A stretch of 64,000 bases of DNA, taken from positions 6,714,858-6,778,857 of the forward strand of contig NC_087075.1 of the NCBI RefSeq assembly GCF_026151205.1. The letters are read 5' to 3'. Under the pieces are notes generated by a model. The model worked only from the letters and a program-made list of their open reading frames with translations. It made no database searches and had not been told where the DNA came from. Position numbers and translations under genes: made by a program. Every line of letters begins with the position of its first letter. The stretch's first letter is position 1. Of this stretch, positions 20,601 through 51,085 are shown piece after piece. The DNA is from Bolinopsis microptera (Eukaryota; Ctenophora; Tentaculata; Lobata; Bolinopsidae).

Positions 20601-23600
20601 AAGGTATCCTGAAGTTAACTTGAAGAGTACTATAAGGTATCCTAGAGTTTACTCAAAAAGTACTTCAAGGTATCCTGAAGTTAACTTGAAGAGTACTACA
20701 AGTTATCCTGAAGTTGACTTGAAGAGTACTACAAGTTATCCTAGAGTTAACTCAAAAAGTGCTACAAGGTTTTATCCTGAAGTTAACTTGAAGAGTACTA
20801 CACGGTATCCTGATGTTAACTTGAAGGGTACTACAAGGTATCCTAGAGTTAACTTAAAAAGTACTACAAGGTATCCGCAAGTTAACTTGAAGAGTACTAC
20901 AAGATATCCTGGATTTAACTTGAAGAGTACTACAAGGTATCCTAGAGTTAACTCAAAAAGTACTACAAGTTATCCTGAAGTTGACTTGAAGAGTACTACA
21001 AGGTATCCTAGAGTTAACTCAAAAAGTACTACAAGGTATCCTGAAGTTAACTTGAAGAGTACTACAAGGTATCCTAGAGTTAACTCAAAAAGTACTACAA
21101 GGTATCCTGAAGTTAACTTGAAGAGTACTACAAGATATCCTAGAGTTAACTCAAAAAGTACTACAAGGTATCCTGAAGTTAACTTGAAGAGTACTACAAG
21201 ATATCCTGGATTTAACTTGAAGAGTACTACAAGTTATCCTGAAGTTGACTTGAAGAGTACTACAAGGTATTCTAGAGTTAACTCAAAAAGTACTACAAGG
21301 TATCCTGAAGTTGACTTGAAGAGTACTACAAGTTATCCTAGAGTTAACTCAAAAAGTGCTACAAGGTTTTATCCTGAAGTTAACTTGAAGAGTACTACAC
21401 GGTATCCTGATGTTAACTTGAAGAGTACTACAAGTTATCCTGAAGTTGACTTGAAGAGTACTACAAGGTATCCTAGAGTTAACTCAAAAAGTACTACAAG
21501 TTATCCTGAAGTTAACTTGAAGAGTACTACACGGTATCCTGATGTTAACTTGAAGAGTACTACAAGGTATCCTGATGTTAACTTGAAGGGTACTACAAGG
21601 TATCCTGAAGTTAACTTGAAGAGTACTACAAGGTATCCTGATGTTAACTTGAAGGGTACTACAAGGTATCCTGATGTTAACTTGAAGAGTACTACAAGGT
21701 ATCCTGAAGTTAACTTGAAGGGTACTACAAGGTATTCTAGAGTTAACTCAAAAAGTACTACAAGTTATCCTGAAGTTAACTTGAAGAGTACTACAAGATA
21801 TCCTGGATTTAACTTGAAGAGTACTGGGGGGGGGGGGGGTCCAACCCGATCATTTCCGATCATTCCGATCCCGATTTTGGCCTCATCAACCCTCATATCG
21901 GAAAAATCGGGAAAATTTAAATCTTTCCTCTGAGGTTTCTAGGCGATATAGGTAGCTATTTCTGTACTTAAATATGACAAGAAATCGATTGGTGGTGGTC
22001 CCAGAACCCCAAAATGGTTTCTAGTTCCAAACAAGAATCGTTTCGTCCGAAAAACAACACACTGTCGTATCAACTCTTGTTTGACAGAAACATCCACCCC
22101 GGTCCACAATTGAAAGAGGTACGGTTGGTAATAACAATAGTAACAAATAGGGAACGCTTTAGTAACTTTTGATTTAAATTGTCTCCACAATTTGTAACAG
22201 GCTATCTGCAGAAATGGGTAGCACGGTTAATGACCATTGACCATGGTCCTTTCTCAAACTTCCAATCCTCAGTTAGATACAAAGAATAGTCTACACAATT
22301 TTAAATAACATTAAAAGAGAGGTGGAGGAGGAGAAGGAGGAAGACTGAGGAGGAGGAGGACTGACGAGGAGGAGGAGGAGGAGAAGGAGGAAGACTGAGG
22401 AGAAAGAGGAGGACTGGGGAGGAGGAGAAGGACCGAGGAGGACTGAGGAGGAGGAGAAGGACCGAGGAGGACTGAGGAGGAGGAGGACTGAGGAGGAGGA
22501 GGACTGAAGAGGAGAGGGAGGACTGAGGAAGAGGAGCAGCTGATTGGTGAGGAGGAGGAGGACTAAGGAGGAGGAGGACTGAGGAGGAGGACGAGAGCGA
22601 GGACGAGGAGGAAGACTGAAGAGGAGGACTGATAAGAAGGAGAAGGACGAGGACTGAGGAGGAGGACTGATGATGAGGAGGAGGAGAAGGAGGACTGGGG
22701 GAGGACTGAGGAAGAGGAGGACTTGTGGAGGACTGAGGAGGAGGACTGATAAGAAGGAGAAGGACGAGGACTGAGGAGGAGGACTGATGATGAGGAGGAG
22801 AAGGAGGACTGGGGGAGGACTGAGGAAGAGGAGGACTTGGGGAGGACTGAGGAGGAGGAGGACTGGGGGAGGACTGAGGAGGATGATGAGGAGGAGGACT
22901 GAGGATGAGAAGGAGGAGAAGGAGGACTGGCGGAGGACTGATGAGGAGGTTGACTGGGGGAGGAGGACTTAGGAGTAGGAGGAGAAGGAGGAGAAGGAGG
23001 AAAAGGAGGAGAAGGAGGAGGAGGACTGAGGAGGAGGAGGAGGACTTAGGAGTAGGAGGAGAATAAGGAGAAGGAGGACTGAGGAGGAGAAGGAGGAGGA
23101 CTGAGGAGGAGAAGGAGGAGGACTGAGGAGGAGAAGGACTGAGGAGGAGGACGAGGAGGATGAGGACGAGGAGGAGGAGGAGGAGGAGGACTGACGAGTA
23201 GGAGGAGGACTGGGGAATGAGGAGGAGGAGGACTGAGGAGGAATAAGATGAGCGCTGAGGAAGAGGACTGAAGAGGATGAGGAAGAGGAGGAGGACTGAG
23301 GAGTAGGACTGAGGAGGAGGAGGAGGACTAAGGAGAAGGATGAGGAGGATGAGGAGGAGGAGGAGGACTCAGGAGGAGGATGACGACTATGAGGAGGACT
23401 CAGGAGGACTGATGGGGAGGAGAAGGAGGAGGAGGATGAGGAGGAGAAATGAGGAGGAGAAATGAGGAGGAGGAGGAGGAGAAGGAGAAGGAGGAGGACT
23501 GGGAGGAGGACTGAAGAGGAGAGGGAGGACTGAGGAAGAGGAGCAGCTGATTGGTGAGGAGGAGGAGGACTAAGGAGGAGGAGGACTGAGGAGGAGGACG

Positions 23601-48374: not shown

Positions 48375-51085
48375 GGGGGGGGGGGGTTGACATGTCTCCG
48401 ATGTCTTTTGTCTTTTTTGAAAAGATAGGGTGCAGAGACATGTCCTGGAGACATTGGAGACATTGGAGACAAAGCTTTTGGAGACATTGGAGACACTGGA
48501 GACTTAGATGTATGATTGGAAAAGGAGGAGGATCTAGGAGGAGGATGACCCAGGAGGAGGACTCAGGAGGAGAAGGAGGAGGATGAGGACTCAGGAGGAG
48601 GACTGAGGAAGAGGACTGAGGAGGACTGAGAAGGAGGAGGACTGAGGAGTACTGAGGAGGATGGCTGAGGAGGATGACTGAGGAGGAGGACCTAGGAGGA
48701 GGAGGACCCAGGAGCAGGAGGACCGAGGAGGAGGACTCAGGAAGAGGACTCAGGAAGAGGACTGAGGAGGAAAGAAAATGAGGAGGACTGAGGAGTACTG
48801 AGGAGGATGGCTGAGGAGGATGACTGAGGAAGATGACTGAGAGGGATGAGGAGGAGAAGGACTGAGGAGAAGGAGAAGGAGGAGGACCTAGGAGGATGAG
48901 GACCCAGGAGGAGGACTCAGGAGGAAGAGGAGGAGGAGGACTCAGGAGGACTGAGGAGAACGGAGGAGGAGGACTGAATAGGAGGAGGAGGGGGACTGGG
49001 GGCAGAACTGAGGATGAAGAAGACTGACGAGAAGGATGAGGAGGAGGACTGAGGAGGAGGTCTGAGGACTGAGGAGGATGAAGAGGAGGAAGACCCAGGA
49101 GGAGGAGGACTGAGGAGGACTGAGGAGGAGGATGAGGAGGATGGCTAAGGAGGATGGCCGAGGAGGATGACTGAGAGGGAGGAGGAGGACCTAGGAGGAG
49201 GAAGACCCAGAAGGAGGACTCAGGAGGAGGACTCAGGAGGAGGACTCAGGAGGAGAAGGAGGAGGATGAGGACTCAGGAGGAGGACTCAGGAAGAGGACT
49301 GAGAAGGAGGAGGACTGAGGAGTACTGAGGAGGATGGCTGAGGAGGATAGCTGAGGAGGATGGCTGTGGAGGATGGTTGAGGAGGATGGCTCAGGAGGAT
49401 GACTGAGGAGGAGGACCTAGGAGGAGGAGGAGGACCCAGGAGCAGGAGGACCGAGGAGGAGGACTCAGGAGGAGGAGGAGGACTCAGGAGGAGGACTCAG
49501 GAAGAGTACTGAGGAGGACAGAGAATGAGGAGGACTGAGGAGTACTGAGGAGGATGGCTGAGGAGGATGACTGAGGAAGATGACTGAGAGGGAGGAGGAG
49601 GAAGAAGGACTGAGGAGAAGGAGAAGGAGGAGGACTGAGGAGGATGAGGACCCAGGAGGAGGACTGAGGAGGAAGAGGAGGAGGAGGACTCAGGAGGACT
49701 GATAAGGAAGAGGACTGAGGAGAACGGAGGAGGAGTACTGAATAGGAGGAGGAGGAGGGGGACTGGGGGCAGGACTGAGGATGAAGAAGACTGACGAGAA
49801 GGATGAGGAGGACTGAGGAGGAGGACTGAGGACTGAGGAGGATGAAGAGGAGGAAGACCCAGGAGGAGGAGGACTGAGGAGGACTGAGGAGGAGGATGAG
49901 GACTAAGGAGGACTGAGGAGGATGGCTGAAGAGGATGGCCGAGGAGGATGACTGAGAGGGAGGAGGAGGAGGACCTAGGAGGAGGAAGACCCGGAAGGAG
50001 GACTCAGGAGGAGGAGGAGAACTCAGGAAGAGGACTGAGGAGGACTGAGGAGGAGGAGGAGGAGGATTGAATAGGAGGAGGAGGAGGAGGGGGACTGGGG
50101 AGGACTGAGGAGGAGGAGGACTGACGAGAAGGATGAGGAGGAGAACTGAGGACTAAGGAGGAAGAGGAGGAGGATGAAGAGGAGGAAGAGGACCCAGGAG
50201 GAGGAGGACTGAAGAGGAGGATGAGGATAAGGACTGAGGAAGAGGAGGAGGACTGAGGAGGATGACTGAGAGGGAGGAGGAGGAGGACTGAGGAGAAGGA
50301 CTGAGGAGGAGAAGGAGGAGGAGGACCCAGGAGGAGGACTCAGGAGGAGGAGGAGGAGGACTCAGGAGGAGGACTCAGGATAACTGAGGAGAAGGAGGAG
50401 TGAATATGAGGAGAAGGAGGGGGACTGGGGAGGACTGAGGAGGATGGCTGAGGAGGATGGCTGAGGAGGATGACTGAGGAGGATGACTGAGGAGGATGAC
50501 TGAGAGGAGGGGGAGGAGGAGGAGGAGAAGGACTGAGGAGGAGGAGGACCTAGGAGTAGGAGGACTCAGGAAGAGGACTCAGGAGGAGGAATGAGAAGGA
50601 GGAGGACTGAGGAGAACTGAATAGGAGGAGGAGGGGGACTGGGGGAGACTGAGGAGGAGGGGGACTTGGGGAGGACTGAGGAGGAGGACTGACGAGAAGG
50701 ATGAGGAGGAGGACTGAGGAGGAGGACTGATGATTGAGGAGGAAGAGGAGGAGGATGAAGAGGAAGAGGAGGACCCAGGAGGAGGACCCAGGAGGAGGAG
50801 GAGAATGACTGAGGAGGACTGGAAGGAGAAAGAGGAGGAGGAGTCTCCAAAAGCTGTGTCTCCAATGTCTCCAATGCCCCTAATATCCATTTTATGTCCC
50901 TAATGTTCCCAATGTCCCCAATGTCCCCAATGTCTCCAATGTCTCCAAAAGCTGTGTCTCTAATGTCCCCAATGTCTCCAATGTCTCCAAAAGCTGTGTC
51001 TCCAATGTCTCCAATGTCTTTGTCTTTTTCGAAAAGATAAGGTGCGGGAGACATTGGAGACATGTCACCCCCCCCCCCCCCCCCC
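48375..51085. mobile_element. G-tract-bounded foldback element C (2.7 kb), TSD AATATA
   Basis: 12 G then TTGACATGTCTCC at the left; GGAGACATGTCA then 18 C at the right; AATATA at 48369-48374 and 51086-51091. Inner inverted sequence includes GTCTTTTTxGAAAAGATA and many GGAGACATTGGAGACA copies. Between them is 2.3 kb of GGA-rich minisatellite. No transposase. Confidence 0.78.
48520..50845. repeat. GGA-rich minisatellite in element C
   Basis: GAGGAGGACTGAGGAGGATG-type units with segmental tandem duplication: a block with GGAGGATGGCTGAGGAGGAT, ACCCAGGAGCAGGAGGACCG and TGAATAGGAGGAGGAGG recurs at about 48650-49100 and 49320-49880 and in part near 50400. Minus-strand open frame of 213 codons is repeat. 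Confidence 0.92.

Follow-up and report, generated by a model that had tools for sequence, protein, structure and literature searches.

In a 64-kb stretch of the genome of the ctenophore Bolinopsis microptera (contig NC_087075.1; hereafter the window, meaning the whole stretch analysed), three elements, E1 (21826–24931), E2 (27251–27519) and E3 (48375–51085), begin with a homopolymer run of G and end with a homopolymer run of C, and these runs form the actual ends of DNA transposons present in many copies. They are brought in by the element itself and are bordered by direct repeats, mostly 6–7 bp long; at least six families show this layout, and two of them carry homologous genes. Several families of homopolymer-ended DNA transposons, with a coding relative not yet assigned to a class, are real and stranger than usual. 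The ends of a transposon are normally fixed to the base, since the transposase cuts at a set place; ends that drift between 4 and 34 bases in length raise the question of how the cut is placed, and they provide a natural end-length series for testing it.

A preliminary description of the window had reported these tract-ended elements. The observation is confirmed, with coordinates, tract lengths (G14, G19 and G12; C8, C17 and C18) and flanks (AGTACT, AACAATA and AATATA) exact for E1, E2 and E3; the interpretation given at that time is supported in part. Besides the window, the analysis covered searches in one genome of 264.65 Mb (232 contigs). The numbers of candidates given below for these searches (369, 1022, 184, 180, 237 and 245) are first-look counts, from each of which the best 40 were scored, and numbers beginning with L label individual genomic copies or stretches.

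G and C runs in the window and in the genome

The window contains eight G/C runs of at least 8 bases, where a first-order Markov model of its sequence yields 0.55 (mean of 20 simulations), and G9 gives 63 overlapping matches for 0.08 expected. A/T runs of at least 8 bases are at expectation (six, for 7.7 from the Markov model), and A/T runs of at least 12 are absent from the 64 kb. Seven of the eight G/C runs fall in E1, E2, E3 and a separate TTAA-flanked element, E4; for the eighth, G12 at 11526–11537, an inverted partner or a duplication was looked for and not found. These run counts, together with the shuffled-flank rates given below, rule out chance as the source of the tracts and duplications.

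In the genome, G14 has 71,502 + 78,491 overlapping start positions, which corresponds by extrapolation to about 27,000 tracts of at least 14 bases (100 listed G14 positions represented 18 tracts). Among runs of at least 14 bases, four of the five in the window (the fifth lies inside E4) and five of the eight in a 23-kb stretch on contig C1 are at the ends of G-run elements. Elements of this kind would account for many of the long G runs of the genome. Long G runs can adopt unusual structures in DNA and pose difficulties for sequencing.

Empty sites and target duplications

The target of E1 is an array of 33-mers with the unit GAAGAGTACTACAAG, and the insertion splits one unit as ...GAAGAGTACT / G14...C8 / AGTACTACAAG. 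For E2 and E3, the flanks were joined around a single repeat copy, and the join served as query against the genome. All 40 scored copies (the best of 237 candidates) matched the E2 join over its full 105 bases, with a span of 105 and 99% identity, and one such site read directly was equal to the join at 61 of 61 bases. The E3 join was matched without gaps at 95–98% identity by all 40 scored copies (the best of 245), 36 of them over all 110 bases. These empty sites are paralogous, being further copies of the target repeat within the one genome analysed. Because they have one copy of the target and no tract, each tract came in together with its element, and the flanking repeats are duplications of the target; an origin of the tracts in the ancestral target is ruled out for E1, E2 and E3. 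Within this one genome, then, the tracts are not ancestral and duplications are found at other loci as well, so that on both points the preliminary description stands. The surroundings of E2 (window positions ~27190–27580) are a high-copy repeat (237 candidates, 40 of 40 scored at 99%).

We surveyed duplications in 43 elements with both ends readable: the three of the window, 10 E1 pairs, 26 E2 loci, the E3 copy L069, and E5, E6 and E7 described below. Three of the 29 other E2 loci (L025, L036 and L037) have a single readable end and were excluded. Identical bases touch both tracts over at least 5 bp in 31 of the 43 elements and over at least 6 bp in 28, compared with 0.8% and 0.6%, respectively, for shuffled flanks; by family, duplications are present in 9/11 (E1), 17/27 (E2), 2/2 (E3) and 1/1 each (E5, E6 and E7). 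The 31 duplications, with an A+T content of 78%, measure 5 bp in three cases, 6 bp in 16, 7 bp in 10 and 8 bp in two. Since a G or C at the edge would merge into the tract, many of the duplications may in truth reach 8 or 9 bp; a direct count gives exactly 6 for E1 and E3 of the window and 7 for L018 and L023.

Two groups of E2 loci are each a single insertion copied with its surroundings, namely window E2, L010, L019 and L033 (L019 in reverse orientation) and L017, L020, L021, L022 and L026 (L017 in reverse orientation). Counted as distinct insertions, of which there are 36, 29 have a duplication of at least 5 bp in at least one copy, or 28 when each group is represented by its first copy alone.

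Families and structure of the ends

The six families, E1, E2, E3, E5, E6 and E7, differ in inner sequence, and in all of them the run sits exactly at the border with the duplication, which argues that a short run has a role as the end itself. The left end of E1 found copies at 96–100% identity (best 40 of 369 candidates; 30 fetched, including the window copy), while for its right end the best 40 of 1022 were scored. For E2 the best 40 of 184 were scored and 30 loci fetched, the window among them; for E3, the best 40 of 180 were scored and one further copy, L069, was read whole. E5 and E6 come from the stretch on C1, which was chosen solely for its listed G14 runs. E6 begins with G17 CCAATGA, contains the iteron TGGGGACTAA, ends in C28 and is flanked by GTTCCCA; its target is a tandem repeat, which itself provides the empty site. 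E5, nested in E6, extends from G21 TCCAACTACAAAAAATACG to C24, with the iteron TTCGTATTTT and the duplication ATCTTTT, and E7, in its complete copy L098, from G8 TGTAACCC to C8 with the duplication TTCTTT. Taken together, the elements show a target duplication with an empty site, inverted ends and multi-copy families, as DNA transposons of the cut-and-paste type with terminal inverted repeats (TIRs) do.

Iterons of 9–10 bp, recognized by eye and with Tandem Repeats Finder, stand a few bases behind the run in every family: CCGATCATT in E1, TGTAGATATT in E2, TGGAGACAT in E3, TTCGTATTTT in E5, TGGGGACTAA in E6 and TTGGGTTTTT in E7. In single-strand DNA folding, 10 of the 12 ends are palindromic (z from −2.4 to −5.6). 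E1 and E5 both have TCCAAC as the six bases immediately inside the run.

A GAGGAGGACT-like purine array of 1.5–2.3 kb is present in E1, in E3 and in an E5 copy (L095, 1900–3455). The E5 copy also holds an E1 right end before its own right end. From the array common to these families and from this E1 end, the elements seem to swap interiors. The preliminary description had denied E1–E3 a common inner sequence, which holds for the ends of E1 and E3 but not for the array in the middle of both. Its proposal of a single non-autonomous family of DNA elements is supported by the G/C-tract ends, the target duplications, the empty sites, the several element-specific inner repeats and the coding relatives E5 and E7, but the families number at least six.

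Within the E1 array, an inverted repeat of 492 nt (22780–23271 / 23624–24115) is 100% complementary and is a very recent inverted duplication. An open reading frame of 134 amino acids in the E1 left end (L065) had no Pfam match and overlaps AATAAA-like signals by eye, and was taken as non-coding. A hAT-like element (CAGGGACAAAAGG...CCTTTTGTCCCTG) with the 8-bp duplication ATGGCTGA is nested in the E3 copy L069 (~620–768, by eye).

Length of the terminal runs

Run lengths range overall from 4 to 34. The left runs of E1 are G9 to G27 in 30 of 30 ends including the window copy, none being shorter than 9. Those of E2 cover the range 4–34, and here length goes with the presence or absence of an interrupting base: 36 ends with G(n)AGCC have a median of 8.5 Gs and 20 ends without the A a median of 18 (Mann–Whitney P = 1e-4; the 56 ends are not all independent). 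Both types occur within single elements in L013, L024 and L038.

Copies of one insertion differ as well. Read in one orientation, the left runs of window E2, L010, L019 and L033 are 19/10/11/16 and the right runs 17/24/10/18; in L020, L021, L022, L026 and L017, the left runs are 7/18/7/6/6 and the right runs 20/22/21/15/12. The seven bases CTTGGCT beside the C run, present in L010 and L033, are absent from the window E2 of the same insertion. Replication slippage, with loss of interruptions and adjoining bases, likely sets the run length. What favours it over an addition of G at insertion is that copies of a single insertion vary in run length and that runs without the interrupting base are longer; long G runs are also not confined to one lineage of transposons here, as described below for TTAA elements, and this too points to slippage.

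Candidate coding relatives

The E5 copy on C1 carries gene remnants on the reverse strand. Two pieces of its protein, used as queries, gave 44 and 58 genome matches, the latter including distant ones at 28–36% identity. Of two distant loci read, L098 is a complete G8...C8 element whose gene lies on the reverse strand and which contains a LINE-like insert; the gene recurs in L099, together with a C10 end. In L100, a G14 end is followed by a zinc-ribbon-like segment (WKCAKCG..RCKKCKD) and by a frame of 317 amino acids with QDVPHAIKKMRNN. E5 and E7 encode homologous proteins (31.6% over 206 amino acids, E = 3.8e-21), and the copy number of the protein is 151 matches. We presume it to be a transposase, on the basis of its position in the element, its copy number, its presence in homologous form in two G-ended families, and the DVPH (DxxH) motif of the 317-amino-acid frame of L100, which chance could give.

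Database searches were largely silent. The zinc-ribbon piece of L100 gave a weak match to PF07754 below the cut-off, the 317-amino-acid frame matched nothing in Pfam, NCBIfam or PDB, the frames of L098 and L099 had Pfam matches only at E = 0.08 or worse, and one L098 frame was without a PDB match. Four copies with frames of 529–590 amino acids were set aside as sources of an intact E5 protein after a look at one of them, that of 590 amino acids (L097), which is mostly read-through of the purine array. A relative of the E7 protein was sought in viral contigs, where seven pattern matches were obtained and none confirmed. Similar unnamed proteins may occur in cnidarian genomes. Candidates for the autonomous relative called for by the preliminary description are the homologous protein genes in E5 and E7, which are decayed and without a transposase domain match.

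Origin of the runs

The explanation that we consider probable is a group of DNA transposons with a homopolymer G run outermost, and a C run at the other end, moved by their own enzyme and altered by slippage. The presumed transposase would bind the 9–10-bp iterons behind the run, cut at the junction of the G run and the flank, and insert the element with a 6–8-bp stagger; the short and purine-array derivatives E1–E3 would be moved in trans. The runs would start at ~6–9 Gs, grow by replication slippage, drop their interruptions and encroach on the adjoining sequence. Because the cut site would be the run and not a fixed sequence, run length need not be kept. A more tentative extension, which we hold to be possible though on balance doubtful, is that such an end can grow harmlessly, shifts the duplication by 1–2 bases and is the source of a sizeable share of the ~27,000 long G runs.

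A number of observations weigh against this explanation. A duplication of 5 bp is missing in 12 of the 43 elements: in five the tract is interrupted or altered (L085/L084, L091/L090, L010, L011 and L031), four are altered copies of one insertion (L017, L020, L022 and L026) whose fifth copy, L021, has 5 bp, and three (L013, L015 and L035) stay unexplained. The duplication length is not constant (5–8 bp), and folding sets neither E1 end apart from shuffled sequence (z = −0.4 on the left and −0.9). The E1 runs were sampled among the 40 highest-scoring of 369 candidates, so that shorter ones could have been missed. The assembly was made with wtdbg on PacBio reads with short-read polishing (PMC10232365, in the text available), so that run lengths, including part of the differences among copies of one insertion, may carry error. 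The E5 and E7 genes are decayed, and no intact one was read: L100 is frame-shifted and L098 is broken by the LINE-like piece. As the E7 protein has no database match, its reading as a transposase draws on position, copy number and the DVPH motif, and movement of E1–E3 in trans by the E5/E7 protein is putative.

The preliminary description had offered addition of G during insertion as one of its two readings. If G were added without a template, or copied at the cut, every insertion would make its own tract; this agrees with the absence of the tract from the targets, with E1 left runs of 9–27 and none below 9 in 30 among copies 96–100% identical, and with the near independence of left and right lengths (r = 0.20). 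It does not agree with L014 and L016, which have just G6–G7 at both ends, or with L012 and L032, which have G6–G7 at one end, since all four show duplications, nor with run lengths that differ among copies of one insertion duplicated with its flanks. An A is moreover kept inside the G-rich end in 36 of 56 E2 ends, and its loss goes with length. We regard addition at insertion as disfavoured and decidedly improbable. Somewhat less improbable, but still unlikely, is that the runs are irrelevant to transposition and that this genome expands any short G run, the seeds being ordinary TIRs that start with GGG, as those of Harbinger-, Mutator- or Merlin-type elements may. Long G runs do occur inside TTAA elements and in tandem repeat units (the C1 stretch), and one in the window is unassigned, while A/T runs there are near expectation. 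General expansion would nevertheless have to place the run exactly at the duplication border in six families of differing inner sequence, and the lack of any run below G9 in 30 E1 left ends (best-scoring copies only) would hardly arise by drift from GGG.

The remaining possibility, that these are ordinary foldback elements of the Mutator type whose coding partner is a genomic Mutator-like element (MULE), appears very unlikely. The genome has 88 MULE-domain matches, and two of the four loci read (L070 and L072) have iteron-rich inverted ends; C13 and C18 runs lie 38–78 bases outside the left inverted repeat of L072, and G8 and G12 runs lie near the gene of L071. Nevertheless, an element extending from a G run to a C run surrounds the gene in none of these four. 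The duplications of MULEs are usually 8–11 bp long, whereas 29 of the 31 found here are 5–7 bp and two are 8 bp, although hidden G or C could raise some to 8–9; the E7 protein has no match to the MULE domain in Pfam. The MULE genes between iteron inverted repeats without G-run ends are those of L070 (1613–3936, GCGACATCTGTCCGAAA) and L072 (1500–4072, GGGCGGAGGTCGCG).

Comparison with known transposon groups

A literature search limited to open-licence papers found no report of homopolymer-ended DNA transposons, which is not proof of their absence. In FB/Foldback of Drosophila and Mutator-foldback elements, e.g., Tm1, inverted repeats built from short units enclose other DNA; homopolymer ends are not known there, and the coding relative E7 differs in having no MULE domain. 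The termini of Galileo, a Drosophila element of the P superfamily, are fixed and not homopolymeric. According to the parts of the sources available, Galileo has 7- or 8-bp duplications (PMC4168063) and, as a point of likeness, long, internally repetitive TIRs that are Foldback-like (PMC3573991), and it differs in its duplication consensus GTANTAC (PMC4168063). The G-ended group gives 3, 16, 10 and 2 duplications of 5, 6, 7 and 8 bp, and bases may hide in the tracts. A search of the genome for the P-type RNase H domain (PF21787) gave no match, and the controls of that search were also silent.

Dada shares the 6–7-bp duplications of the G-ended group but, by the definition in the available text, has no TIRs and inserts in small RNA genes (PMC3706591); it was set aside on this definition, as the G-ended elements have inverted ends and sites of many kinds. 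The targets of E1–E3 are repeats, not compared against RNA families. A C/DxxH motif after the second catalytic D characterizes the hAT/P/MuDR/Kolobok/Dada clan (PMC9587614, in the part available). Polintons are marked by a 6-bp duplication and genes of viral type. A link to ctenophore chromatin loops was dropped, the anchor motif being GC-rich with two CpGs and not a G run, as far as the published text available goes.

TTAA elements with internal G runs

E4 has the ends GGCCAGAG...CTCTGGCC and TTAA on both sides. Its G27 starts seven bases inside the TIR (37989) rather than eight, as had been described, and because C7 stands at the mirror place of the other end, this run is internal and much longer on one side. 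The duplication, end bases and run position remove E4 from the G-ended group, where it had been included, and place it with Kolobok-like elements. Kolobok is defined by a TTAA duplication and 5'-RR..YY-3' ends (PMC9587614, in the part available), both of which E4 shows, while E1–E3 and E5–E7 lack the TTAA duplication; judged by its ends, E4 is Kolobok-like and does not bear piggyBac's signature. TTAA/GG... ends with a G run of 8–21 a few bases inside are also found in L019 (503), L029 (2714 and 3052) and L065 (617), and such elements represent another lineage of transposons whose G runs have expanded.

Coordinates and other features of the window

Table 1. Parts of the tract-ended elements and of the TTAA element, in window positions.
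Feature	Position	Strand	Remark
E1 left target duplication AGTACT	21820..21825		single copy in adjacent 33-mer units (empty site)
E1 left terminal G14	21826..21839	+	G9–G27 in 30 of 30 E1 left ends read
E1 left end inside tract: TCCAAC, then CCGATCATT-like 9-10-bp iterons	21840..21912	+	
E1 purine/pyrimidine array, GAGGAGGACT-like	22319..24348		
E1 right part, ends in CGGGTTGGA	24349..24923	+	best 40 scored of 1022 candidates
E1 right terminal C8	24924..24931	+	
E1 right target duplication AGTACT	24932..24937		
E2 left target duplication AACAATA	27244..27250		empty site in 40/40 scored copies
E2 left terminal G19, then AGCCAAGTAGATATTTGTAGATATT iterons	27251..27269	+	
E2 body, with palindromes of TGTAGATATT-like iterons at its ends	27270..27502	+	fold z −5.0, −2.8
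E2 right terminal C17	27503..27519	+	
E2 right target duplication AACAATA	27520..27526		
E3 left target duplication AATATA	48369..48374		empty site in 40/40 scored copies
E3 left terminal G12	48375..48386	+	
E3 left palindrome/iterons (TGGAGACAT)	48387..48510	+	fold z −2.9
E3 purine array	48523..50843	+	
E3 right iterons and palindrome, ends in ACATGTCA	50857..51067	+	fold z −5.6
E3 right terminal C18	51068..51085	+	
E3 right target duplication AATATA	51086..51091		
E4, separate TTAA element	37982..39675		TTAA/GGCCAGA G27 TAA ... TTA C7 TCTGGCC/TTAA

Close to E2, at 26451–26650, a 95-bp repeat occurs twice and contains many palindromic CCTATCGG/CCGAGAG units. About 35 mismatch-free copies of CCCTGA at 29015–29222 form a telomere-like hexamer array in an internal position. 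The window also holds a protein tyrosine phosphatase gene and a glycosyltransferase gene.

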